Shown piece after piece: positions 6,302-64,000 of a DNA stretch of 64,000 bases. Both the position numbers and the translations under genes were made by a program. A model generated the notes under the pieces. The model had not been told where the DNA came from. It saw only the letters and a program-made list of their open reading frames with translations, and did not search any database. The number at the start of each line of letters is the position of its first letter. Positions within the stretch are counted from its first letter, which is position 1. The stretch covers positions 1 through 64,000 of the forward strand of contig JAUXYP010000004.1 in NCBI GenBank assembly GCA_030694265.1. The letters are read 5' to 3'. Source of the stretch: Sulfuricurvum sp. (GTDB lineage Bacteria > Campylobacterota > Campylobacteria > Campylobacterales > Sulfurimonadaceae).

Positions 6302-8116
6302 CTAATGTAACAAGAGGGCTTTTTCCTCTCCTCTTTTTTGCAAATGAATATTCAGCACATTTCCCTTTGGAAAAATGCTGTATTCCTGATGAGTATTGGG
6401 ATCAATAAATTGTACGCGATTGTTCCCGTAATAAACCCCGTGATGCGTTATGACGCCATGCAAATCAGCCTCATGCAATGTCTTCAACATATCCCGTAGA
6501 ACATACAAAGCATTGTCTTCTTCCACTATCTTTGCACTCAGTAACTGAAGTCTGCCTGCTTCAGCTCTGTACTGCTGTATGCTAAGAACGTCCATTTCCA
6601 GTGGTTCTCTTCCACTGTTTTTTGCATCCGCAATACGCTGCTGAAATCGTTTCATCTGAACATTTTTTTCTTTAAACGCAAACTGTTTCATCCCCAGCTC
6701 TTTTTTATCGTCTCGCAGACGATTTTCTTTTTCCAGAGCTTTAGCCGTCAATTCCGCTATTTGTTCGTGATACACTCCAAAGGAAGCAGGATCTATAATC
6801 ATCGTATTGCCTTCCCCCTCGATATTGTCAACTTCAATACTTTCAAGTGCAATAATTTTACCGTGTGCAAAAAGAGTTTCAATGTACACTTTTCGTGCAA
6901 TAATCTCTCCTCCAAGCATTTTCTTAATCCGAACGATGTCACCCTCAATCGTCCCCCCCTCAAGAACATCAATATTGGCCTCTTTCGCCCTTAAATCACC
7001 CCGATGAAGTTTGATATTGGCTACTCCGCTCACATCAATGGTTGATTTTTTATGGGTTTGTGCGTCAATACTCAGATCACATGCTTTGATTTTCGTATTT
7101 TCCCCTACCGTTCCGCTAATATCAACCGTTTTGATGTCAATACGCAAGCCTGCTCCTACGGCATCTTCACCAGCATTCTTCTGTTCTACCGTAAGCGTTA
7201 TCTCCTTGTCAGAACCTGGCACGATGGAACCGGTTTTCATGCTGACAGCTTCGAGGTATAAATCTTGGGCAACGACAAAAATTCCTTTTTCCCGCTTTAC
7301 GAATCCTGAGACAAGGGAAAAATAACTAACGCCCTTTTCATCTTGAGTACTCCGAATGCTTTTCTCGTCAATCTTCATAACTCCGGCATACTTAATCGTT
7401 GGTTCAGGAACAACAATAGGAGCTCCATCTAATCCGCGTCCATTACGACCTTTTTTGGGAAAGATATATTCCATTATAAAATCTCCGGGCTGTACCCCAT
7501 GAATATAACTAGGATCTTCCGGATTTTCATCCTGCTTTTTGTAATGCAAAACAACTTTATCATCTATGGTATTAATGGGGGGAAAGAAGCTTCCGATCGG
7601 TAACGAGTAGGGTTCTGTAAGGGGGCCTTGTTTTTGTATCCTTGCTAGAAGACGCAGTATCTCTTTGTCAAGCTGCTCATCATCGGTCCCAATCAAATAC
7701 CCAAGGCGAAGCTTTTTTTTGTTGATGACGGTTTTAATCCACTCTTGCACCCCTTTTTTGAGAGGAATGGTCGAAGAGGGGTCAATAATCGCTGTCAGAA
7801 TCCCCTTGGCCTTGCTGATCCCGACAGAAAAGCGCAGATCCAGATAGAGGATTGGAACCGAGGGACGTATTGTAATTTGATATTCTTGGCTGAGTACATA
7901 TTCGTCACTGTAAAGGTCTTCTGGTGTTATTTGTGCATACACGTCACCGCTTGGCATAACATGCCACTCTTTGTCTGCAACTCTTTTATAGTAGGTTTCA
8001 TAAGAAAGCAGATCAAAATCAACCTCATCTGCGCTTAGCTTACGATCACTCGCAGCAAAGCGCAAATCCTCTTTAACATTCGTAGATGCCTTGGTAATAG
8101 GTGTAAATTCTGCCAT
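6302..8116 (-). CDS. FapA-family (DUF342) polymer-forming protein
   Basis: A 604-residue cytoplasmic protein. The central part (about 270-440) has the repetitive beta-helix pattern of DUF342/FapA, with GEIIARKVYIETLF and similar turns. It is followed by a charged coiled-coil region (about 455-560, ALEKENRLRDDKKELG) and a small C-terminal beta domain. FapA proteins influence flagellar assembly or placement in Vibrio and Campylobacterota; the exact mechanism is not established. The N-terminal 100 residues resemble no domain I recognise. The neighbours are not flagellar genes, though a flagellar hook cluster lies 9 kb away. The start is the ATG at 8114-8116. Confidence 0.75.
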   Translation of the reverse strand: MAEFTPITKASTNVKEDLRFAASDRKLSADEVDFDLLSYETYYKRVADKEWHVMPSGDVYAQITPEDLYSDEYVLSQEYQITIRPSVPILYLDLRFSVGISKAKGILTAIIDPSSTIPLKKGVQEWIKTVINKKKLRLGYLIGTDDEQLDKEILRLLARIQKQGPLTEPYSLPIGSFFPPINTIDDKVVLHYKKQDENPEDPSYIHGVQPGDFIMEYIFPKKGRNGRGLDGAPIVVPEPTIKYAGVMKIDEKSIRSTQDEKGVSYFSLVSGFVKREKGIFVVAQDLYLEAVSMKTGSIVPGSDKEITLTVEQKNAGEDAVGAGLRIDIKTVDISGTVGENTKIKACDLSIDAQTHKKSTIDVSGVANIKLHRGDLRAKEANIDVLEGGTIEGDIVRIKKMLGGEIIARKVYIETLFAHGKIIALESIEVDNIEGEGNTMIIDPASFGVYHEQIAELTAKALEKENRLRDDKKELGMKQFAFKEKNVQMKRFQQRIADAKNSGREPLEMDVLSIQQYRAEAGRLQLLSAKIVEEDNALYVLRDMLKTLHEADLHGVITHHGVYYGNNRVQFIDPNTHQEYSIFPKGNVLNIHLQKRGEEKALLLH

Positions 8117-8301
8117 AATTAATAATACCTAACCATAAACCTATCTCTCCATTGCAGTAGTGACGTAGTGACTAAAATATAAATTTCCCTGATAATAACG
8201 CGTTTGCGATAAAAAACATCTTGAAACAATTAACATGTAAGATTATTGTCACATTTAATGTATAATATTTTACCTATGTAACAAATGTGAGGAAAGTTAA
8301 T

Positions 8302-11300
8302 GTGCGCCTAAAATCATTTTTAATGATATTACTATGTACCCTTCCTCTCTTTGCAATAGAGCAGGTTTCAGTACAGCTCAAATGGCACCATCAATTTCAG
8401 TTCGCCGGTTATTATGCCGCGATTGAGCAAGGATACTATCGTAATGAAGGGCTGGAAGTTACCCTAAAAGATCGAGATACAGCGCTCAATAACGTCGATC
8501 AAGTTCTCAATGGAAAATCGGGCTATGGAATTGCCGATACCGTTTTACTGTTATATCAAGCACAAAAAAAGCCGGTAGTCATCGTTGCGCCCATTTTTCA
8601 GCACTCCCCAAATGTTCTTATAACTCTGGCATCCAGCGGTATTGACAGTCCTGAGAAATTAATCGGAAAACGTGTTGCCTTCTATCCCAACGATGCTGAT
8701 GGATTGCCCACATTGGCAATGCTTTACGAAACGGGTGTTGTGAAGCGGGGATTTAAACGTGTCCCAACGCAGTTTGATATCAAAGAGCTTTATAACAAAC
8801 AAGTCGATGCAACCCACGGTTATGCAACGAATGAACCCTACGCTTTTCGACAAAAAGGATTTGAAGTTAATGTCCTTTATCCTCAAAACTTTGGGGTTGA
8901 TTTTTATGGCGACATTCTCTTTACAACACACAATGAGCTAGAGCATCATCCAAAACGTGTGGCTGCAATGAAACGTGCTACGATCAAGGGATGGCAGTAT
9001 GCCATTGCGCACAAAGAAGAGATAATTCGTCTCATCCAGACCAAATATCACAGTACTCAAACAACCCAGAAGCTTTTATTTGAGGCCGATGGAGTCATTG
9101 CCGCCATTGCCCCATCATCAATTCCTATTGGAACATTGAATCAAGGCCGTCTGGAGTATATTCACGCTATGCTCAAACGTCATGGGCTGATTGATTCACC
9201 TGTTTCTCTGGAGCACTATATCTACCGCGATGCCCAAGGGTTACGTCTGGCAGTTTTGGAGTACATCTCTTTGGACCAGATGCTCGCTATGGGTAGTATC
9301 TTTGTTATTATCCTGATTACTTTAGTTTACTATATGAGGCAGCTTCGCAAGCGAAGACAGGAACTCATCGGTTTAAGCGACAGTCTCAACCAAGCCCAAA
9401 GTATCGCCCATTTAGGCAATTGGGAATGGGATATTCAAAAAAATACACTTTGGTGGTCAGATGAAATTTATCGGATTTTCGGATTTAAACCACAGGAATT
9501 TAGTCCAACCTATGATCTGTTTTTAACACAAGTTCATCCTGATGACAGGATAATGGTACAAGAAGCGGTGTCTAATGCCCTTAACGATGAAGCCCTATAC
9601 CATTGCGTACACCGCATTGTTCTCCCCGATAAAATGCTTCGATATATTTTAGAAGAAGGTGTTGTACAGTACGATGACCATCAAAATCCGATCAAAATGA
9701 TGGGAACTGTACACGATATTACAGAACGTAAAAAAGTAGAAATCCTCTTGGCCGAAAAAGAAGGGTCACTTCAAACACTCCTAAACTCTGTGGCAGAAGG
9801 GATCTACGGAGTCGATGTTAATGGCTATTGTACCTTTGTAAACCGATCTTTTTTACGCATACTTAAGTTTGAGCATGAAAATCAAATATTGGGAAAACAT
9901 ATCCATGAATTGATCCACCATTCGCATAAAGACGGCTCGGTCTATCCAAGCCCTGAATGTAAAATGTATAAAGCCAACAAAACCCACCTAGCATCTCATG
10001 TCGATGACGAGGTCTTCTGGTGTCAGGACGGCACCAGCGTAGCAGTAGAGTATTGGTCCTATCCTATGCTGGAGAATGGTGAATTTGTAGGCGCCGTAGC
10101 CACATTTCTTGATATTACGGAACGTATAGCTGCACGAGAACAATTGATCAAGGCCAAAGAATCAGCAGAAGCATCCACACGTTCAAAATCAGAATTTTTA
10201 GCGGCCATGAGCCATGAGATACGAACACCTATGAATGGTGTTTTAGGAATGCTTGGGCTACTGGAACAATCCAATTTGGATACCACCCAAAAACATCAAG
10301 TGCGTGTAGCAACATCCAGTGCAACCTCTTTGCTGGGACTTATCAACGACATCCTTGATTTTTCAAAAATAGAAGCAGGTAAAATGACTTTGGAAAACAT
10401 CCAATTCAATCTGCACGATGAGCTTAAAGAGCTTACCGAAGCCATTGCTTTTAAAGCCCACGAAAAAGGGCTGCAACTTCTCCTGAATATTATGGATATC
10501 AAACACCAAAACATCATAGCCGATCCAGGGCGATTGCGTCAGATTCTCACCAATCTAGTAAGCAATGCGATCAAATTCACCCATCAGGGAACCATTGCCA
10601 TCGATGTTTTCATCAACGAGATTGATGAAAACCATGGACTTCTGCACATCGATGTTATCGACAGTGGAATAGGAATACCTGCTGATAAGATCAGAATACT
10701 TTTCGATGCCTTTACCCAAGCTGATGGGTCTACTACCCGTAAATACGGAGGAACAGGCCTAGGACTTTCTATCGTCAAGCAGCTGTGCGAACTCATGGAA
10801 GGCTCCATTAGCGTTGCCAGTATCCCCAACGAAGGAAGCACTTTTAGTATCGATTTGAGAGTTGAATTTGGAAATAATGAAAGGATTAGCACCAAAAGAC
10901 CTTCTCCAATACATTCCGATGACAAAGTGCTATGGCCAGTGCATACCCGTATTCTTTTAGTAGAAGACAACCCCACCAATCAAATGGTAGCCCAAGCAAT
11001 GCTTGAAACAATGGGGCTAAGCGCAGATATCGCAACAAACGGGCATGAAGCCATAGAGTCTATCAAACATGCAAGCAACATTTTTCCCTACTCCATCATA
11101 CTAATGGATTGTCAAATGCCGGACATGGATGGATACGATGCCACGCGTGGTATACGCTCCGGTAAAGCGGGGGAAAAGAACACACAAATTCCCATCATCG
11201 CTATGACCGCTAACGCGATGAGCGGAGATCGTGAAAAATGTATGATCGCTGGAATGGACGACTATATTGCCAAACCCATCAATACCGTTACGCTCAAACA

Positions 11301-45784: not shown

Positions 45785-45860
45785 GGGCCCTTAGCTCAGC
45801 TGGGAGAGCGCGTCGCTGGCAGCGACGAGGTCAGCGGTTCGATCCCGCTAGGGTCCACCA
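45785..45860 (+). tRNA. tRNA-Ala (anticodon GGC)
   Basis: A 76-base cloverleaf from GGGCCCTTAGCTCAG to GGGTCCACCA. GGGCCCT pairs with AGGGTCC, the anticodon loop is CTGGCAG (GGC), the T-loop is GGTTCGATCCC and CCA is encoded. An integrase gene ends 59 bases downstream, so this is a probable attachment site. Confidence 0.97.
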
Positions 45861-45903: not shown

Positions 45904-45927
45904 ACTTCAAGTAAAACTTCAAGTAAA
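45904..45927. repeat. Tandem 12-bp direct repeat at the integrase end
   Basis: ACTTCAAGTAAA occurs twice with no gap (45904-45915 and 45916-45927). The second copy contains the integrase stop codon. It lies 43 bases from the tRNA, where arm-type binding sites of tyrosine integrases are expected. Confidence 0.6.
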
Positions 45928-47061
45928 AATATTAATTTCTCTACGTATGTTTTCGTGATCGTTTCCTAGATATCTGGCATAGTTCTGCCATAACATTCTA
46001 AGCGTTGTGTGTCCAAGAATATTAGCAATCTCTTGAGGCGTAAACTGTTTTGACTTCAAAGCTAAGATGGCCCAAGTGTGCCGAACATTCATGATTTGGC
46101 GATAAGGTAAATTAGCTTCTTTTAAAAGAGCTGTCCAATCTCCGTTTTTATACTTTTTTCCACGAAGATCTTCGATATCATTTAAACGTTTCCCATCTTC
46201 ATTAGAAAAAAGCCATATCGTTCCCTTTTGCTTTGCAATTTCTATTTGTGCCTGAACAAAAGGAATTCCCGAATCAAATACCGGAACAGTCCTATTACTA
46301 TCATCTGTCTTCGTCTTTTTTAATGCGCCCTTACTAATCGCCCTTTCAATAATGATCAATTTTTTTACAGAATCGAAATCATCAATCTGCAATGCTATGA
46401 GTTCCTCTGGCCTTAACCCACATGAAAATCCTATTCCAAGATAGTTTCGCAAATCTCCTGTTGCCTTATCAAGTAAATGCAGCACTTCTTCTTTGGTAAA
46501 AGGTTTTCGATCAGCCTCAGTCCTCTTTGATGGGCTTGCTGTAACATTATCCATGATGTTTTCACTTTGCATAGGGTTTTTTGTAATAGCTCGATCATCG
46601 ACTGCGCATTGAAAAATTCCTCTTACGTCTGATCGCCACTCCTTAAGTGTAGATTTACACACTTTTAAATCATTTAAAAACTTTTTGATTTTAAGATCAC
46701 TAACCCCTGATGGAATTTGATCTCCATAAGTGTCGTCTTTCTCATATTCAGCTTTTATGAATCGATTAACTCGATATTCAATTGCTTTATAACGAGTCAA
46801 TTCCTTTTTAAAGCTAAGGTACACTTTCGCATAATCTCGTATTGTTTTAGGACGCTTAAGCAGAAGTGACTTTTCACCTAGCCTTGCAATAAGTTTTGGA
46901 ACAATCTTATTTTTAATATCTCTCCGATTTGATAAAGTATCATCCATCCCTGTAGATTTTTGCCGTATTTTTCCGCTTTCATCCCAAAACTCTATATACA
47001 GTTTTTTAGTTTTTGGATGAACAAAAATCGTACGTAATTCAGAGTATTTAACTGTTTTCAT
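45919..47061 (-). CDS. Tyrosine-type integrase of the island
   Basis: A 380-residue phage-type integrase. An N-terminal arm-binding domain (about 1-55, FWDESGKIRQKSTGMDD) is followed by a core-binding part and the catalytic domain (about 185-375). Catalytic residues seen: Arg in GLRPEELIALQ, His/Arg in NVRHTWAILAL, His in ILGHTTLRMLWQNYARY, and Tyr in the last segment. The ATG at 47059-47061 has GAGAGGA; a TTG 18 bases earlier is less likely. Its 3' end faces the tRNA-Ala, as usual for tRNA-integrating elements. Confidence 0.9.
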   Translation of the reverse strand: MKTVKYSELRTIFVHPKTKKLYIEFWDESGKIRQKSTGMDDTLSNRRDIKNKIVPKLIARLGEKSLLLKRPKTIRDYAKVYLSFKKELTRYKAIEYRVNRFIKAEYEKDDTYGDQIPSGVSDLKIKKFLNDLKVCKSTLKEWRSDVRGIFQCAVDDRAITKNPMQSENIMDNVTASPSKRTEADRKPFTKEEVLHLLDKATGDLRNYLGIGFSCGLRPEELIALQIDDFDSVKKLIIIERAISKGALKKTKTDDSNRTVPVFDSGIPFVQAQIEIAKQKGTIWLFSNEDGKRLNDIEDLRGKKYKNGDWTALLKEANLPYRQIMNVRHTWAILALKSKQFTPQEIANILGHTTLRMLWQNYARYLGNDHENIRREINIFT

Positions 47062-47124
47062 CTTTATCCTCTCTTTCAATAGAAAAAATGGACGCTGGCA
47101 AGTTGTATAAATACTTTTCCCAAT

Positions 47125-57545: not shown

Positions 57546-57864
57546 TTAATATATTAAACCTCTATCCCTTGCTATTACCCATTGAGTTAGCTGATCCATC
57601 GTAGAAAAGATTTCTTCACTAAAATATGGAGTATTTTTATAAACCACACAACTAGCGCTACGCGTACGTATGCATGGACACACTGACACCTTCTTCATAC
57701 ACCACAATATGGCATGGTATAAACTGGGCAAAATGTGGGTTGGATGTCAACATGATCGAAGCTAATTTTGCCTGACATACTTCATAAATATAGACCTTCC
57801 GATCAATCGGAAATCCTTTACTGGCAACGACTTCATGATAGTTATAATGATGAAGCAATACCAT
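57546..57864 (-). pseudogene. Decayed DUF302::DsrE fusion remnant
   Basis: One frame (57864 downwards) matches the DUF302 gene at 59277-59717: over 57 residues, from LLHHYNYHEVV to VYEEG, 49 are identical. After YEEG the sequence switches, in another frame, to the C-terminus of the DsrE-like gene (58920-59273): PYF, STM and WVIA recur and 16 of 30 terminal residues match. The N-terminal 45 residues of DUF302 and the N-terminal 76 or so of DsrE are missing. It is in line with the operon but frameshifted with in-frame stops. Confidence 0.75.
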
Positions 57865-57867
57865 GTT

Positions 57868-58323
57868 CTATATAGGAATTTCATTTTCCTCTTTTAATAA
57901 GAGTTTTGAGCTTTCGATATCAAAGGTAAATTTCCTCTCCATCGGCTCATAGCATAGCCCTTGTTGGGAACATCCCTGATACCCGACTACCAGTGTGATC
58001 GGGACGATGTCATTTATTTCTTTGGTTTTAACTAAAGGAATATCAAAAGTTACTGAAGAGGTGTACACTTTTTCCCCGTCATGGTCAATTGGCTTAGGAA
58101 GAATAAGATGATCAACCATGATTCCACTGTTTTTTTCCAAAACTTTGGCTGTGATTTTAGATTGATAGAGATAAATATTCTCTCCAAGTTCAATAGTCAC
58201 TGATGCTGTACACTGTTTTTTCATATGGGCCGAGGCTTTGAATGTCTCTTCGAACATTAAGAATTTTGGTTCAACAAATACCATAAATGTTAGTATTACC
58301 AAAAAAACTAAGATGTATCTCAC
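57868..58323 (-). CDS. Stand-alone DsbD alpha-domain-like protein
   Basis: A 151-residue exported protein. The first 20 residues are hydrophobic (MRYILVFLVILTFMVFVE). The body resembles the immunoglobulin-like alpha domain of DsbD, ending YQGCSQQGLCYEPMERKFTF, whose two cysteines are the thiol pair that passes electrons to periplasmic partners. The membrane and thioredoxin domains of DsbD are missing here. GTG start with GAGGAG; three bases after the methyltransferase stop. It likely reduces or feeds a periplasmic thiol protein. Confidence 0.7.
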   Translation of the reverse strand: MRYILVFLVILTFMVFVEPKFLMFEETFKASAHMKKQCTASVTIELGENIYLYQSKITAKVLEKNSGIMVDHLILPKPIDHDGEKVYTSSVTFDIPLVKTKEINDIVPITLVVGYQGCSQQGLCYEPMERKFTFDIESSKLLLKEENEIPI

Positions 58324-58326
58324 TCA

Positions 58327-58920
58327 TTACTCCTCTGTCAGTTTAAAACATTTGATGAAAGTAAAAGCCTTATTCGTCATTGCCACTCCAGTGGAAGAGC
58401 AATTAAAAAAACCAGCTTTTTGGGCTAATGTCATTATTTCTTGAACAGAATAGAAGGTGGCTTTACTGTAGAAACGACTTTTGTTCTTGTCCGCTTCGTA
58501 CATCTGTCCCAACAATGAATTTTTATCGACTATCCCAATAATCAAAAATCCATTTTTGCAGATAACCCGATAAGCCTCTTTCAATGCTTTAAGAGGATCA
58601 TCCACAAAACAAATCACCGTTATCATGATGGCAAACTCGAAAGTTTCATCATTAAAAGGAAGTTTCTCAGCTCTCCCCTTAATCGGATGCAATCCTTTAG
58701 TAATAGCAATATTTCTCATAACCTGAGAAGGCTCAACGCCAATCTTTATACCAAGTGGTAGAGCAAATCTGCCGCTTCCCATCCCGATATCAAGACCGTT
58801 TATATTTTTTTCTACGAGCCGTTTAAGAGTCTGAACTTCATCTGCATAAATAAGCGGATTTTTTTCAAACCATTGTTCATACTCATTGCCATTAAGATCG
58901 AAACTTTCTGTTTTTGCCAT
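58327..58920 (-). CDS. Class I SAM-dependent methyltransferase
   Basis: A 197-residue soluble enzyme. Motif I is GLDIGMGSGRFALPLGI (near 40-56), then GRAEKLPFNDETFEFAIMIT, LKEAYRVICKNGFLIIGI and a C-terminal helical part typical of Methyltransf_11. Substrate unknown; its place amid thiol/sulfur genes suggests a thiol or sulfide methylase. Its ATG overlaps the DsrE-like stop by one base (TAATG). No signal peptide. Confidence 0.8.
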   Translation of the reverse strand: MAKTESFDLNGNEYEQWFEKNPLIYADEVQTLKRLVEKNINGLDIGMGSGRFALPLGIKIGVEPSQVMRNIAITKGLHPIKGRAEKLPFNDETFEFAIMITVICFVDDPLKALKEAYRVICKNGFLIIGIVDKNSLLGQMYEADKNKSRFYSKATFYSVQEIMTLAQKAGFFNCSSTGVAMTNKAFTFIKCFKLTEE

Positions 58921-59273
58921 TAAAACGTCAAAACCTTATTGCTCGCTATGACCCAATCGGCCAGAACCTGCATTGTTGACGAAATACTCTCATCAAAATA
59001 GGGCTGATTTTTGAAAAGTCCGCATCGTGCATTACAGGTTCCACATACTTGTAGCGAAACACCCTCTTCATAAAGCTTTTTCAACATATCCACCAAATCA
59101 TGATCATAACTCTCAGGCTTGACAGTCATATCTCGGGCGAGATCGACAGCATCGTTCATCAAAAAGATATTGACCTTTTCACCGCTTTTGTAAAGTGTTT
59201 TAGCTAGACGCAGTGCATTCCACGCGACATCAGAACCGTCGTAAGGTTGGTGGTTTAATATGAAGGTAATCAT
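58920..59273 (-). CDS. DsrE-like sulfur carrier protein
   Basis: A 117-residue cytoplasmic protein with the DsrE/TusD-like fold: ITFILNHQPYDGSDVAWNALRLA at the start and VNIFLMNDAVDLAR in the middle. Cysteines lie in LQVCGTCNARCGLF near 76-89, where DsrE-group proteins carry the persulfide-holding residue. The ATG at 59271-59273 has AAAGGATAA. It abuts the DUF302 gene. It may pick up sulfane sulfur from the upstream rhodanese or other carrier. Confidence 0.78.
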   Translation of the reverse strand: MITFILNHQPYDGSDVAWNALRLAKTLYKSGEKVNIFLMNDAVDLARDMTVKPESYDHDLVDMLKKLYEEGVSLQVCGTCNARCGLFKNQPYFDESISSTMQVLADWVIASNKVLTF

Positions 59274-59276
59274 CAC

Positions 59277-59717
59277 TTATCCTTTTAATTTTTTCATCAT
59301 GTTTTGTAAAGCGGTAAAAAGTCTTATCGCTTCACTATGTAACTGCTCTTGTGATTGAATCAAATCAATCATCATTTGCATGTTTTGTGTTGAAATTATC
59401 GTCGTATCCCCTTCTTCATACACCGCAATACGACATGGCATAAAAGGGGCAAAATGTGGATTTGATGTTAACATCATAGAAGCAACTTTGGCTTGACATA
59501 TTTCATAGATATAGACTTTTCGATCAATAGGAAACCCTTTATTCGCAACGACTTCATGATAGTTATAATGATGTAGTAATGCAAATCTATATTCTGCGCA
59601 CACTTCCTCTACGTCGTCAACAATTGATTGAATGCTCCGTTTGCTTTTAAATGCAATCGTAAACATTTTAAGCATCTGTTTTTTTGGCATTAATGCCATC
59701 ATTAACTTTGCTAACAT
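59277..59717 (-). CDS. DUF302 domain protein
   Basis: A 146-residue protein. The DUF302 domain (about 20-125) has FALLHHYNYHEVV, YIYEICQAKVASMMLTSNP and CRIAVYEEG, and a helical tail follows. DUF302 is associated with sulfur and redox genes; its function is not established, though a role with DsrE-type proteins is often proposed. It follows the rhodanese by two bases and abuts the DsrE-like gene. A truncated copy of it survives at the 3' end of the operon. Confidence 0.8.
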   Translation of the reverse strand: MLAKLMMALMPKKQMLKMFTIAFKSKRSIQSIVDDVEEVCAEYRFALLHHYNYHEVVANKGFPIDRKVYIYEICQAKVASMMLTSNPHFAPFMPCRIAVYEEGDTTIISTQNMQMMIDLIQSQEQLHSEAIRLFTALQNMMKKLKG

Positions 59718-59719
59718 AA

Positions 59720-60181
59720 TTATTCTTCTTTAGTGAGTAAGGTAACGCCTAACCCCGTTTCAATCGGGTAACCCTCTTGGGCCCATCCTTTGAGTCCACC
59801 TTTTAGATTTGTCGCATTGACGTAGCCTAGTTTTTTAAGCGTCTGAGCAGCTAGTGCACCTCGTCCGCCGCTGCGACAATAGGTCACAATGACTGCGTTT
59901 TTATCTTTGATTTTATTGAGTACTTCAAACTCTAAATTGCCGCGCGTGATTGCCATGGTTGTCGTGGTGTAAATTTCACCTTCTGCCCGCTGGTTCTCTT
60001 CGCGTACGTCCATGACGATAACGTTTTTTTCCGCGTCAATCATCTGCTTCAACTCTTTAGGAGCCATTTCTCCTGCCTCTTGCTTTGCCGCAGAAACTAA
60101 TTTTTCTGCTTCTGCTTGACCTGCCATAAGTGATGAGCATGTTAGTAAACTTGCTATCAATAGAATTTCTTTTAACTTCAT
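59720..60181 (-). CDS. Exported rhodanese
   Basis: A 153-residue protein with a Sec signal peptide (residues 1-20, cut after MAG). The rhodanese domain has IVMDVREENQRAEGEI near 56-71, and the active-site loop TYCRSGGRGALAA near 100-112, with Cys in the consensus position CRSGGRG. LKGGLKGW is the conserved end. It should transfer sulfane sulfur in the periplasm. It heads the operon and has a strong AAGGAG. Tandem 8-bp operator-like units lie directly upstream. Confidence 0.92.
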   Translation of the reverse strand: MKLKEILLIASLLTCSSLMAGQAEAEKLVSAAKQEAGEMAPKELKQMIDAEKNVIVMDVREENQRAEGEIYTTTTMAITRGNLEFEVLNKIKDKNAVIVTYCRSGGRGALAAQTLKKLGYVNATNLKGGLKGWAQEGYPIETGLGVTLLTKEE

Positions 60182-60208
60182 TGGGTACTCCTTATATGTA
60201 TTATGTTA

Positions 60209-60232
60209 TTAGCTAATTAACTAATTAACTAA
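60209..60232 (-). promoter_or_regulatory. Three tandem 8-bp operator units upstream of the rhodanese operon
   Basis: TTAGCTAA at 60209-60216, then TTAACTAA twice (60217-60232). TATAAT on the minus strand (60240-60235) lies just upstream, so bound protein would cover the transcription start. The same repeated unit occurs in the divergent control region at 60788. Confidence 0.65.
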
Positions 60233-60266
60233 TTATTATAGTGCAATCAAAAAAAAATATCAAGTC

Positions 60267-60728
60267 TTAATGAATCGGGATATAAGCAAAATGTTCGTTT
60301 TGTTTATCGATCAACCCGATGGTCGAGTTCGGGGTCAGTTTGACGAAATCGTACACATTGCTTTGATCAATTTTGAGTGTTCTCATGGTTGCTTCACACA
60401 TCAAAAATTCTACCTCATACGTATTTGCCATCGTTGCGAGCCGTTTACCCAACTGCTCCTGTGCAAGTGAGAGCTTTTTATCATTTTTGTATGGTGAATT
60501 TTTGAGATCTTTGACGAAAAATTTGTACGCATCACCATGAATTACAACGGAAACATCGAGCTTTTCGAGTTTTCCCTCGTAATGCCCTTTATGATAGGCA
60601 ATCCCTTTTAGCACTTTTTTTTCAAAAGTAGCAATATCTCCGGTTTTTAAATCGAATACAACCTGTTTAACCCCTTCTTCGGCAAAGAGTATCCCGCATA
60701 GAGCAAGCATAAGTAACCATTTTTTCAT
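60267..60728 (-). CDS. Exported DsrE/DsrF-like protein
   Basis: A 153-residue protein with a signal peptide (MKKWLLMLALCGILFAEE). The body has VVFDLKTGDIATFEKKVLKG, VSVVIHGDAYKFFVKDL and VEFLMCEATMRTL, the DsrE-like fold with a cysteine at about residue 117. It is a periplasmic relative of the DsrE gene in the adjacent operon. It is separate (38 bases before the operator of the rhodanese gene) and divergent from the ArsR gene, whose promoter region it shares. Confidence 0.75.
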   Translation of the reverse strand: MKKWLLMLALCGILFAEEGVKQVVFDLKTGDIATFEKKVLKGIAYHKGHYEGKLEKLDVSVVIHGDAYKFFVKDLKNSPYKNDKKLSLAQEQLGKRLATMANTYEVEFLMCEATMRTLKIDQSNVYDFVKLTPNSTIGLIDKQNEHFAYIPIH

Positions 60729-60787
60729 TGATGAGCCTTTTAACTGATTTGATGCATTATAAAGGAGAAATGTAAAAATAAAGTTAA

Positions 60788-60862
60788 AAAACTAATTAGC
60801 TAATTTGCTAATGTATACACTTGTGTTATAATCAAACAACTACAAAATAGGTATCACCTATT
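60788..60862 (+). promoter_or_regulatory. ArsR/DsrE divergent control region
   Basis: Tandem AAAACTAA, TTAGCTAA and TTTGCTAA occupy 60788-60811. TATAAT at 60827-60832 is the arsR -10 box, so the units sit about 28-51 bases upstream of its start. AATAGGT-ATC-ACCTATT, a perfect 7-bp inverted repeat, is at 60846-60862, just downstream of the transcription start. Probable autoregulation. Confidence 0.65.
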
Positions 60863-60878
60863 CGAAACAAGGCGATTG

Positions 60879-61259
60879 ATGTTAGATATGGAACAAAAGA
60901 TCAAAATTTTTAAAGCGCTCAGCAATCAAACCCGTTTTATGATTTTTAAGAATGTTTTTACGGGTGGATACACTTGCTCGCTGGATAAAATACAGCCTGG
61001 GGTTAAAGTAAATCCTATCGCGACGTGTGTCAGTACCGTCGCGGAACATTTTAATTTTTCCCTTCCTACCATCTCTGCCCATATCAAAGAGCTCAAAGAA
61101 GCAAAAATCATTACCGTTGAGAAAAAAGGAAATAAAGTTTACATCGAACCCAATATTGAGACGATCCGAGAGCTTGCTGAATGCTTTGGAACCTTGGTCA
61201 ATAATTTCGATAATAACAGAGAATTGTTTTTTGGAGACACATTAGTAGTAAAAAGTTAG
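60879..61259 (+). CDS. ArsR-family regulator with two cysteines, probable sulfur or metal sensor
   Basis: A 126-residue winged-helix protein. FKALSNQTRFMIFKN is the ArsR start, and FSLPTISAHIKELKEAKIIT the DNA-recognition helix. Cys33 (GYTCSLD) and Cys50 (IATCVST) lie in a segment before the recognition helix, which is longer than in typical ArsR. They could form a disulfide or polysulfide bridge, or bind a metal. It is not like ArsR of arsenic operons. ATG at 60879 has AAGG; TTG one codon before is also possible. Divergent from DsrE-like gene. Confidence 0.82.
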   Translation: MLDMEQKIKIFKALSNQTRFMIFKNVFTGGYTCSLDKIQPGVKVNPIATCVSTVAEHFNFSLPTISAHIKELKEAKIITVEKKGNKVYIEPNIETIRELAECFGTLVNNFDNNRELFFGDTLVVKS

Positions 61260-61337: not shown

Positions 61338-62564
61338 TCACATAAGATTTAAATCATTTGAAAAGATTAATTCGATTCGAAAAAATGTTTCATTTTGGGT
61401 AATAGAGTATTCAAAGCCAATTTCATGACTCAGCCGTTTTAACATTTTTTCTCCAATCCTAGAACTGAATAAATACTTCTCATCCCCAACAATATTATCT
61501 ATCCAAACTTTTCGTTCCACAGGATCGCATCCGACTTTCACAATACTTTTTTCCTTAGCATAGGTAATCGCATTTTCGAGTAAAGCGCTCAAAACTTTAG
61601 AAAGTAGTTTTTCAGAAGCTACTATTAAAAAAGTTTCCATCTGAAGTTGTAGCACTAGCTGTTTACGCTGAATTAAAATGTCCATTTTTCGAACAATAGC
61701 TTTTAAGACTTCAAGAAGATTGATGCTAATGGGCTCCTCAAAATCGGAACTTTCTAAAAATAAGACATTTTTAAGTTCGCTTGTGAGTCTTTCAATATCA
61801 TGACCTAAATCCACTATAAACTTATTCTTCGGATAGTTAGCATTGTTTTCATAAACATCGAGCCGTGAACGCATTAATGCCAAGGGGGTTTTGAGTTCAT
61901 GTGCTGCCTCTTTAAACAACTCGGCTTCTTTAGTACGAAATATCTCCAAACGATGAATTAACATGCCAAATGCGTGAGAAACCTCTATGATCTCTTTGCC
62001 GGGGTTACCAAGTGAAAAATCAAAGGGCTCTTGGTTATTCCATTCTCGTGTTTTTTTTGCTAAGACAGCTAAAGGCTTCATATAATAATCCAACAAAACA
62101 ATACTAATCAGTAAAATAACCAGCAGTGAAACTAAATAACGCAGAAGAAGTTTCTGCGCGTATTTATCAAGTGCAAGTTCAATTTTTTCTGTATTGCTAA
62201 TAGCATAAAGATAGATACCATTACGTTGCTGCACCGAGGATACGACTTCATTTTCTCGTGAAATATAAGGCTCTTTTGAGACAAGAAAACGTAGTTTTGA
62301 TGCTTCTGAATCGTTTAAAATCATCTTATTATGAGGAATGGCGTATAAATAACTAAGACAACTTTTTGGAGTGAGTGGTTGTAAAATATGGTCGCTCATA
62401 CTCTCATTTAACAAATGATTCAGTACCTTTTCGAGGTCATGTATTTTTTCACTGCGCATCGTATGAAGTGCCACTATCCAATTGAGTCCAAAAGCAATAG
62501 CTATGAGAATAGAAAAAATAAATGTTATTTTTACTTTAAGCGATCCTGTCCATTTATTTTTCAA
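61338..62564 (-). CDS. Sensor histidine kinase (CusS-like)
   Basis: A 408-residue membrane kinase with transmembrane helices at about 10-28 and 140-160, and a periplasmic domain of about 110 residues between. HAMP-like MKPLAVLAKKTREWN follows. The dimerisation box AAHELKTPLALMRSRL carries the phospho-His. HATPase motifs: LLENAITYAKE (N-box); the G1/G2 boxes are weak at the end (DNIVGDEKYLFSS), so the C-terminal part is divergent. It overlaps the regulator gene by 11 bases. Confidence 0.85.
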   Translation of the reverse strand: MKNKWTGSLKVKITFIFSILIAIAFGLNWIVALHTMRSEKIHDLEKVLNHLLNESMSDHILQPLTPKSCLSYLYAIPHNKMILNDSEASKLRFLVSKEPYISRENEVVSSVQQRNGIYLYAISNTEKIELALDKYAQKLLLRYLVSLLVILLISIVLLDYYMKPLAVLAKKTREWNNQEPFDFSLGNPGKEIIEVSHAFGMLIHRLEIFRTKEAELFKEAAHELKTPLALMRSRLDVYENNANYPKNKFIVDLGHDIERLTSELKNVLFLESSDFEEPISINLLEVLKAIVRKMDILIQRKQLVLQLQMETFLIVASEKLLSKVLSALLENAITYAKEKSIVKVGCDPVERKVWIDNIVGDEKYLFSSRIGEKMLKRLSHEIGFEYSITQNETFFRIELIFSNDLNLM

Positions 62565-63201
62565 TAATGTATCCTCGTGTTTTAATCGTTTTTATAAGGG
62601 AAGGATGTAGCTTACGGCGAAGACGTGCAACCAGTTCATCAATGGCATTAGTAGTGACATTTTGAGGGTTATCATAAAGAGTATCCATAATTTCGTCTCG
62701 CGAAGCAATAGCGTTGCGATTGAGCAGATAAAACAGTAAAGTATGCTCATTTTTAGAAAGGACAATCTGGGTTCCGTCTTTCTGAACACTTTGACGAATA
62801 AGATCGATTTCAAACCCCTGAAGTTCCAATGTCTTTGGTGAGAATCGGCGTGATAGTGCAATGATTCGCGCTCGAAGTTCTTTAACATCAAATGGTTTTT
62901 CAAGGTAGTCATCCGCTCCAAACTCTAATCCTTGAACTTTGTCATCTACCGTCCCAAGGGCACTAAGAATCAAAACAGGCTGTGCAGGATTCTTTTGTTT
63001 GGCATAGAGAATTAATTCTTTCACTCTGTCTTCACCATGAAAGGTGCGGTCTAAAACGATCACGGCATACGTGAATGCATCCAAATGGATTTTTACTTCA
63101 TCTATTTCGCTTGCGGCATCGACAATCCAGCCTTCCTTTTGCAAAGAAAACGTCAACAGTTCCAAAAGCTCTTTTTCATCGTCTGCAATTAAAATACGCA
63201 T
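62554..63201 (-). CDS. OmpR-family response regulator (CusR-like)
   Basis: A 215-residue regulator. The receiver (1-115) has DDEKELLEL, the phospho-Asp in VIVLDRTFHG and the conserved Lys in YLEKPFDVKEL. The winged helix (about 125-212) ends with RLRRKLHPSLIKTIKTRGYI. It lies in a cluster with a CusA/CzcA pump, so it probably controls metal-efflux genes. It starts one base after the DUF3240 stop codon. Confidence 0.92.
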   Translation of the reverse strand: MRILIADDEKELLELLTFSLQKEGWIVDAASEIDEVKIHLDAFTYAVIVLDRTFHGEDRVKELILYAKQKNPAQPVLILSALGTVDDKVQGLEFGADDYLEKPFDVKELRARIIALSRRFSPKTLELQGFEIDLIRQSVQKDGTQIVLSKNEHTLLFYLLNRNAIASRDEIMDTLYDNPQNVTTNAIDELVARLRRKLHPSLIKTIKTRGYIIEK

Positions 63202-63489
63202 TTACAATTCACTGACCCCGTACGTGTACATTTTGATATTTTTCCCATGAAGATTTTGTTTGATTGATGAAGAGAGGGACATGATATTCTCCTGAACTAA
63301 AAAGAGTTTAAAAACACCAAAATCGGCTCTTGCACTTACTTGTTCTTTGGCACTTATTAAAAAAGCTCCCACTCCATAGCGATTGCAGGCAAAAAAGTAA
63401 AAATCATTATACCCCTCCGCCAGCAAAAAATCCACCAAAGTATCTTTATGCGTAATTTCAAAATAAATATCCATTGCATTCAAACTCAT
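63202..63489 (-). CDS. DUF3240 PII-like protein
   Basis: A 95-residue protein with the ferredoxin-like plan of DUF3240 (MDIYFEITHKDTLVDFLLAE, then FFACNRYGVGAFLISAKEQV). The family is found beside CusA/CzcA pumps and is thought to bind a metal or nucleotide, but this is not proven. It overlaps the pump gene by four bases, so it is co-translated. Confidence 0.72.
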   Translation of the reverse strand: MSLNAMDIYFEITHKDTLVDFLLAEGYNDFYFFACNRYGVGAFLISAKEQVSARADFGVFKLFLVQENIMSLSSSIKQNLHGKNIKMYTYGVSEL

Positions 63490-64000
63490 TTGTTTCCTCG
63501 CTTATAAATCATTTTAAAGGCAGGTGGTAATATCAAAAGAGTCAAAATGGTTGATGTGACCAATCCGCCCAATACAACGATTGCCAAAGGCTTTTGAATC
63601 TCACTTCCAACACCGGATGCAAATAATAACGGCAAGAGTCCTAATGCCGCGATAAATGCTGTCATGAGCACGGGACGAAGCCGTCTTCGGGCCCCCTGAC
63701 TTACTGCATCATCAATACTCAATCCGTTTCCAAGAAGAGTATTAAAATAACTCACCATCACAACGCCGTTAAGCACAGCAATACCAAACAGTGCAATAAA
63801 TCCGACCGATGCTGGAACCGATAAATACTGACCGCTCAAGAATAGAGAAATAATTCCCCCCGTCACGGCAAAAGGGATATTAAGCAAGATTAGCAACGTT
63901 TCACTGACCGAACGGAAAGTGAAAAAGAGAATTAAAAATATTACTCCGATACTCACAGGAACAACTGCCATCAAGCGTGCAGATGCGCGTTGCTGATTTT
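63486..64000 (-). CDS. CusA/CzcA-type RND heavy-metal efflux pump, C-terminal part
   Basis: The last 171 residues of a large inner-membrane pump are seen. Four to five transmembrane helices, with FAVTGGIISLFLSGQYLSVP and GIAVLNGVVMVSYFN, then DAVSQGARRRLRPVLMTAFI and GSEIQKPLAIVVLGGLVTST, are typical of CusA/CzcA. The gene continues past the right edge. Linked with DUF3240, response regulator and kinase genes downstream. Confidence 0.9.
   Translation of the reverse strand, partial: NQQRASARLMAVVPVSIGVIFLILFFTFRSVSETLLILLNIPFAVTGGIISLFLSGQYLSVPASVGFIALFGIAVLNGVVMVSYFNTLLGNGLSIDDAVSQGARRRLRPVLMTAFIAALGLLPLLFASGVGSEIQKPLAIVVLGGLVTSTILTLLILPPAFKMIYKRGNK

Follow-up and report, generated by a model that had tools for sequence, protein, structure and literature searches.

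The window analysed here is the first 64,000 nucleotides (forward strand) of contig JAUXYP010000004.1 from a Sulfuricurvum sp. genome (GCA_030694265.1; Campylobacterota), and our subject is a compact group of sulfur-transfer genes lying beside a gene for an ArsR/SmtB-type repressor. The repressor (60876-61259, + strand, read as 127 amino acids) is divergent from all the others, which lie on the - strand. An exported DsrE-like protein (exDsrE, 60267-60728, 153 amino acids, invariant C111) forms its own unit under the predicted operator O1. Set off from it by 85 bases is an operon of five genes. It begins with an exported single-domain rhodanese (59720-60181, 153 amino acids, active-site loop CRSGGR, signal-like N-terminus), a DUF302 protein (59277-59717, 146 amino acids, C74 and C95) and a cytoplasmic YchN-like DsrE (58920-59276, 118 amino acids, C78, motif CGTCxARCG). 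A class I S-adenosylmethionine (SAM)-dependent methyltransferase of the Thermotoga TM1293 family (1vlm; 58327-58920) follows, and a truncated DsbD with the alpha (DsbD_N) domain only (57868-58323, 151 codons, C-x5-C retained) closes the operon. Pfam scores are all over the curated cut-offs: 61 and 45 bits for the two DsrE proteins, 61 for Rhodanese, 49 for DUF302, 61 for Methyltransf_11 and 65 for DsbD_N. An initial annotation of this DNA had placed seven open reading frames here, with operon gaps of -1 to 3 bases; all seven are where it put them, and the gaps are 2, 0, -1 and 3 bases. Its locus start, 57546, does not hold: it lies beyond the last intact operon gene, and 57546-57864 (- strand) is a decayed DUF302'-DsrE' remnant (DUF302' 57658-57864; DsrE' part 57546-57731).

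A single type of dyad marks the control regions of these genes. ATTAGCTAAT occurs twice in the 64 kb, where 0.14 occurrences are expected, once before arsR/exDsrE and once before the rhodanese gene. The predicted operator O1 (ATTAGC-TAATTT-GCTAAT, 60795-60812) sits in the arsR/exDsrE intergenic region and shares bases with the leading hexamer of a promoter-like site for arsR (TTGCTA-16-TATAAT, + strand). The second, O2 (ATTAGC-TAATTA-ACTAAT, 60208-60225), follows the promoter-like site of the rhodanese gene (TTGATA-17-TATAAT, - strand, 60263-60235), some 10 bases past its TATAAT hexamer; such hexamer scans are weak evidence taken alone. With at most one mismatch, the dyad TTAGC-N6-GCTAA is found in 38 of 49 ArsR upstream regions, compared with 2.4% for random windows and 0.5% for shuffled sequences, and a second dyad of the same tolerance is present in the exDsrE-rhodanese gap of 11 of 12 loci. 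Since the dyad stands before both arsR/exDsrE and the rhodanese gene, one ArsR repressor probably controls two or three units through these predicted operators. The earlier proposal of a single ArsR acting on two control regions is thus supported, as a prediction, by one strongly conserved dyad type at both. Scanned across the whole genome, the operator pattern pointed to no further regulon: it had one other exact match, the surroundings of which were not examined, and fewer matches in total than the control pattern.

In Pfam the helix-turn-helix domain of this repressor scores 21.4 bits, just under the cut-off of 22, and against NCBIfam HTH_metalloreg it reaches 52 bits (cut-off 55); a PDB search from the single sequence gave zero matches. 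About 16 residues are inserted between alpha2 and alpha3. The AlphaFold model (predicted local distance difference test, pLDDT, 83) has the winged-helix order alpha1-alpha2-alpha3-alpha4-beta1-beta2-alpha5, which, with the dyad operator, places the protein in the ArsR/SmtB superfamily. Foldseek returned general ArsR/CzrA/HlyU matches, with SqrR at rank 36 and BigR at rank 45. Three cysteines, C34, C51 and C103 (numbered in the 127-residue reading), are kept in 28/28, 28/28 and 27/28 aligned relatives, respectively. The model puts the first in the strand that follows alpha2, the second where alpha3 begins and the third within alpha5; the predicted alpha2 contains none. Among published ArsR proteins, persulfide sensors have their two cysteines in alpha2 and alpha5; canonical As(III) sensors are marked by C-(V/A)-C in alpha3 (PMC10509353). 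The window ArsR has C-V-S in place of the latter, and in the aligned relatives too the residue next-but-one from C51 is not a cysteine. As predicted from sequence and model, the cysteine pattern matches neither the persulfide (BigR/SqrR) group nor the As(III) group. The initial label of a BigR/SqrR-type ArsR with two cysteines is not supported: the invariant cysteines are three, none is inside alpha2, and the score against the BigR/SqrR family model NF040642 is 17 bits, with a cut-off of 155.

The operons of that group (bigR, sqrR, ygaVP) nevertheless resemble ours in placing an ArsR repressor with conserved cysteines, one of them in alpha5, beside rhodanese or other sulfur-transfer genes. They differ in that the window ArsR lacks the alpha2 cysteine and has extra cysteines after alpha2 and in alpha3 as well as the sequence insertion, and in that neither persulfide dioxygenase nor SQR is recognised near the window locus. 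ArsR repressors also govern sulfur-trafficking genes with DsrE and rhodanese in Hyphomicrobium, where sHdrR and SoxR respond to sulfane sulfur and SoxR is reported to be confined to Proteobacteria (PMC10451225, PMC12423496); unlike there, no Hdr, LbpA, TusA or Sox genes are recognised next to the window locus.

We searched for the arrangement elsewhere, class-wide in a sample of 397 Campylobacterota genomes. In this sample the ArsR occurs in 29 genomes and the DsrE in 63, and the two lie no more than 3 kb apart in 19 of the 29 that bear the ArsR. Two genes would come that close by chance in about 1 in 370 genomes of 2.2 Mb; the ArsR-DsrE arrangement is far beyond chance. Within the genus Sulfuricurvum, 20 of 41 sampled genomes have the DsrE, 19 of them with the ArsR no more than 2 kb away. 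In the twentieth, G407, an intact operator and a decayed ArsR frame lie upstream of the rhodanese gene (contig C143, locus L249, past position 8191), and an intact ArsR is on another contig. Maps of 40 regions show ArsR and rhodanese-DsrE divergently oriented in Sulfurimonadaceae and in other groups. The initial annotation had staked its reading on co-occurrence in other genomes, and the neighbourhood does recur in genus and class.

Two modules can be told apart in these loci. The first, Rhod-DUF302-DsrE, is present in six other Sulfuricurvum genomes, always in that order and with the DUF302 protein 81-90% identical; in five of the six it stands beside an intact ArsR, with an ArsM-like double methyltransferase on the other side of the regulator. 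The second, found in about 12 genomes, has ArsR facing (exDsrE)-(Rhod)-DsrE-(methyltransferase)-DsbD-DUF255-OprD, and Sulfuricurvum sp. STA_65 (L140) carries DsrE-methyltransferase-DsbD in the window order. Judged by sequence comparison, the window locus is a mosaic, in which exDsrE and methyltransferase-DsbD of the second module are joined to Rhod-DUF302-DsrE of the first. The class sample had pointed to DUF302 as a private insertion of the window genome; the six further genomes of the genus-wide search overturned this. A counterpart on the S. kujiense plasmid pSULKU02 (SULKU_RS13745-13775) shares ArsR (87%), exDsrE (83%), rhodanese (77%) and DsrE (73%), the divergent layout and the operators. 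With ArsR facing exDsrE-Rhod-DsrE-DsbD-DUF255-OprD, it differs from the window in having the full DsbD, DUF255 and OprD and in lacking DUF302 and the methyltransferase. This plasmid locus is annotated; we found no published function for it, nor any published description of such a locus in the open-access literature.

The window copy itself lies between two perfect 45-bp repeats 27.6 kb apart. The left attachment repeat is the 3' end of tRNA-Ala (45816-45860, + strand) and is followed by a tyrosine integrase gene (45919-47079, - strand); the identical second copy is at 73397-73441 of the contig, beyond the window. When joined, the flanks of the island match genomes G407 and G425 over 260-280 of 317 bases at 81-82% identity, and these two genomes probably carry empty sites. 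A duplicated tRNA target, an integrase and a probable empty site together identify an integrative island. Its GC content is 37.7%, against 41.7% outside, and resolvase genes flank the pSULKU02 copy. The island of the window also carries, beside the ArsR gene, a two-component system and an RND efflux system (window 61338-63974 and L242 2545-4784; AcrB family, CusB/HlyD adaptor, outer membrane factor).

Relatives' loci add OprD porins, DsbD and a thioredoxin-like DUF255 protein. These partners, with the Sud-like rhodanese, would suit a system that acquires and activates sulfur or polysulfide for energy metabolism (oxidation or reduction of elemental sulfur, S0) and not for detoxification; the copy in the window would then be a cut-down form of it. 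OprD porins have been proposed for S0/polysulfide uptake in Campylobacterota, and S0 raises OprD and rhodanese genes of Sulfurovum indicum (PMC10045233), whose likeness to the genes of the locus is one of gene type. The window copy, however, has neither OprD nor a full DsbD, and a patchy distribution within the genus, on plasmids and islands, is unlike that of core energy genes. We consider this account quite unlikely.

The last gene of the operon had been described as a DsbD alpha-domain protein. The domain is indeed there, but the gene is not a natural one-domain gene: it is the first 151 codons of a DsbD of 592-600 codons, a full copy of which takes its position in four further Sulfuricurvum loci. 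From its first codon it can be aligned with the N-terminal part of the DsbD in L036, L100, L108 and L140 (592-600 amino acids), and it stops ahead of the membrane domain, with the C-x5-C pair retained. Of the alpha, eight-transmembrane and gamma thioredoxin parts that make up a DsbD, only the alpha domain is present in the window copy, and the periplasm-to-cytoplasm relay through DsbD that had been proposed for it is not supported, as its membrane and thioredoxin domains are missing. The truncated protein is 72% identical to that of L108, and DNA likeness to L140 stops about 20 bases ahead of the stop codon. Differences from L108 number 33/14/75 at codon positions 1/2/3; read from the sequence, this third-position excess shows past selection on the DsbD_N domain and is not proof that the domain works alone now. 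A single further DsbD, of the full type, is encoded in the window genome, on contig C20 (54% identity across the core).

The remnant beyond the DsbD gene matches the first-module DUF302-DsrE pair of other Sulfuricurvum genomes, with DNA identities of 83-89% over DUF302' and 78-80% over DsrE'. Its DUF302' has lost the N-terminus and, at a YEEG stretch common to both, passes with a frameshift into the 3' portion of DsrE'. An origin as a tandem duplicate of the operon's own DUF302-DsrE was rejected, as DsrE' resembles the DsrE of other genomes more than the operon's own; the remnant indicates, from these alignments, that the locus has recombined repeatedly. In G416 (contig C196, L248, about 1591-1869), an N-terminal piece of DsbD likewise stands alone, between an ArsM-like gene and ArsR, and suggests the same kind of recombination elsewhere. 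One may ask whether the window holds just a mosaic left by such recombination, its operon defunct as a unit: the DsbD is truncated, the DUF302'-DsrE' remnant is frameshifted, and G416 and G407 have their own DsbD fragment and decayed ArsR. We think this very unlikely, as arsR, exDsrE and the five operon genes all have intact frames, with the invariant cysteines, both conserved operators and the promoter-like sites in place. Their differences from relatives, moreover, are mainly in the third codon position (9/5/31 in DUF302 and 39/29/91 in the methyltransferase, alongside the DsbD_N values above).

The rhodanese, DsrE and exDsrE each have an invariant cysteine where the active site is expected or close to it, and DUF302 has a cysteine pair. 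The active-site C102 of the rhodanese is conserved in 20 of 21 sequences. Wolinella Sud is a periplasmic polysulfide-sulfur transferase, and the window rhodanese matches it (1qxn) with 49 bits across 113 residues. With its domain, active-site cysteine and signal-like N-terminal segment, the last judged by eye, it qualifies as a Sud-like exported rhodanese. Like Sud, it is an exported single-domain rhodanese; unlike Sud, it is linked to DsrE, DUF302 and ArsR, and its transferase activity is predicted from sequence. C78 of the cytoplasmic DsrE is invariant in 18 of 18 relatives, and the nearest solved structure is YchN (1jx7), followed by TusD (2d1p) and DsrE (2hy5); the Pfam DsrE match, the conserved cysteine and the fold are those of a DsrE/TusD relay protein. 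No EFH or BCD partners of a DsrEFH/TusBCD complex are among the operon genes, and the TusD model gives 34.5 bits against a cut-off of 89. C74 and C95 of DUF302 are present in 35 of 35 relatives, and DUF302 genes sit within sox clusters of sulfur-oxidising Proteobacteria (PMC5037610, PMC11034169). A plasmid search with DUF302 gave only matches of about 25%, in Firmicutes, and PHROGs offered no useful name.

The methyltransferase finds 1vlm at E 1e-74 by profile and has the SAM motif GxGxGRFAxPLGI. A DsrE gene lies beside or near a TM1293-type methyltransferase in 7 of 80 loci, spread over several phyla and including distant DsrE types; the two are adjacent in Sulfuricurvum STA_65, Sulfurimonas, Arcobacter-like, Nitratifractor-like and Atribacteria loci. 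Neighbours in the 80 loci are mixed (MBL fold, Mrp/ParA, DnaJ, DsrE), and therefore the substrate cannot be read from context. L217 (Nitrospirae, 1078-2940) has on one strand, in sequence, a DsrE-like gene, an Azotobacter-type methyltransferase (55%) and a TM1293-type one. The ArsM-like two-domain methyltransferase adjoins the same ArsR in about 12 loci, the window's own genome included. These pairs in several taxa and the ArsM-like double enzyme beside the same regulator uphold the methyltransferase of the initial reading as a recurrent partner. In the window's own genome, L134 (contig C9:109000-126000) holds at 7119-9403 a second ArsR (94%), a divergent rhodanese (91%) and a convergent ArsM-like enzyme, with neither DUF302 nor DsrE. 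At L139 (7017-8015) the rhodanese begins with a MerT-like transport domain (MerTP_fusion 138 bits, cut-off 180), and L110 (6571-7587) encodes a protein of similar length and context; both fusions stand beside the same ArsR family and ArsM-like methyltransferase.

ArsM has three substrate cysteines, C72, C174 and C224 in CmArsM numbering. In the ArsM-like protein of L134 and relatives only the third is aligned, SNC having become SNG and the GCGNP cysteine V, and this loss, as aligned, speaks against plain arsenite methylation. It bears on an alternative in which the locus responds to thiophilic metal(loid)s (arsenic, thioarsenate, selenium, tellurium, mercury): ArsR would bind the ion via C34/C51/C103, rhodanese and DsrE would protect against it or sequester it with sulfide, and the methyltransferase would methylate it. 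Several neighbourhoods fit such a response, among them the dozen ArsM-like loci, the two MerT-rhodanese fusions and the RND efflux and two-component systems of the island. On a Legionella oakridgensis conjugative plasmid (L037, 10001-12504), moreover, a DsrE 57% identical to ours adjoins a DMT-family transporter and an arsenic permease; Legionella plasmid DsrE is also near Cus-like efflux, and DsrE-like genes respond to arsenite in Thioalkalivibrio (PMC6620896). Yet the C-V-S of ArsR departs from canonical As(III) sensors, two of the three ArsM cysteines are missing from the ArsM-like protein, the Legionella permease used as a probe found no homologue at any Campylobacterota locus examined, and OprD, DsbD and DUF255 are atypical partners for ars loci. 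On balance we regard a metal(loid) response as unlikely.

We favour, at a probability of roughly 0.55, an accessory, horizontally moving locus for the handling of sulfane sulfur (persulfide or polysulfide), repressed by the three-cysteine ArsR. In its favour are the neighbourhoods that recur in genus and class, the cysteines of rhodanese, DsrE, exDsrE and DUF302, the match to Sud, the OprD, DsbD and DUF255 partners in relatives, the DUF302 genes of sox clusters, dyads conserved well beyond their controls, and the lack of any match to the Legionella arsenic permease, used as probe, at the Campylobacterota loci. With no inducer, ArsR would sit on TTAGC-N6-GCTAA and shut the promoters of arsR itself, exDsrE and the rhodanese gene. 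It would be released when C34/C51/C103 react with reactive sulfur or, less probably, with a thiophilic metal(loid). The exported rhodanese (C102) and exDsrE (C111) would then accept polysulfide sulfur in the periplasm, the YchN-like DsrE (C78) and DUF302 (C74/C95) would carry or buffer sulfur in the cytoplasm, and the methyltransferase would methylate a small thiol, persulfide or chalcogen product. An intact DsbD, where present, may serve as electron donor to the periplasmic carriers; in the window genome only the chromosomal DsbD on contig C20 could do so. The mechanism first proposed holds in outline for the wider family, without the DsbD relay in the window copy and without the BigR/SqrR label. 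Several points weigh against the sulfane-sulfur interpretation. Genes for persulfide dioxygenase, SQR, TusA and Hdr are not recognised beside the locus, and ArsR falls outside the recognisable BigR/SqrR group, with no alpha2 cysteine. The methyltransferase family is common (at least 513 confirmed relatives, mostly not adjoining DsrE), and the ArsM-like enzyme and MerT-rhodanese fusion beside the same ArsR also fit a thiophilic metal(loid). Operator binding and expression, finally, are predictions from sequence.

Other described clusters are only partly alike. The NCBI 'tso' selenoprotein operon (TsoA/B/C, TsoR) shares an ArsR-type regulator and rhodanese/DsbD domains, but TsoR scores 34 bits (cut-off 115) and TsoB 27 (cut-off 805), and the window frames need no selenocysteine. 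Azonexus and Azotobacter plasmid clusters combine an ArsR-rhodanese fusion, DsrE, rhodanese and a SAM methyltransferase, with MBL and MFS genes as well in Azotobacter; their DsrE is only about 40% identical, and their methyltransferase and ArsR belong to other families. A bolder and distinctly tentative proposal is that the three cysteines and TTAGC-N6-GCTAA define a new ArsR thiol-sensor class over a mobile, modular Campylobacterota sulfane-sulfur system, with DUF302 as carrier and a TM1293-type or ArsM-like methyltransferase capping by methylation.

To model the window locus as a DsbD relay would mislead, since the relay is cut in this copy. What the locus offers is an ArsR cysteine pattern outside the persulfide and arsenite groups, and one operon that brings together DUF302, YchN-like DsrE and TM1293-type methyltransferase, families without an assigned function. 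Altogether, it would give a small, conserved and testable regulon in sulfur-oxidising Campylobacterota, where sulfane-sulfur trafficking and its regulators are poorly known.

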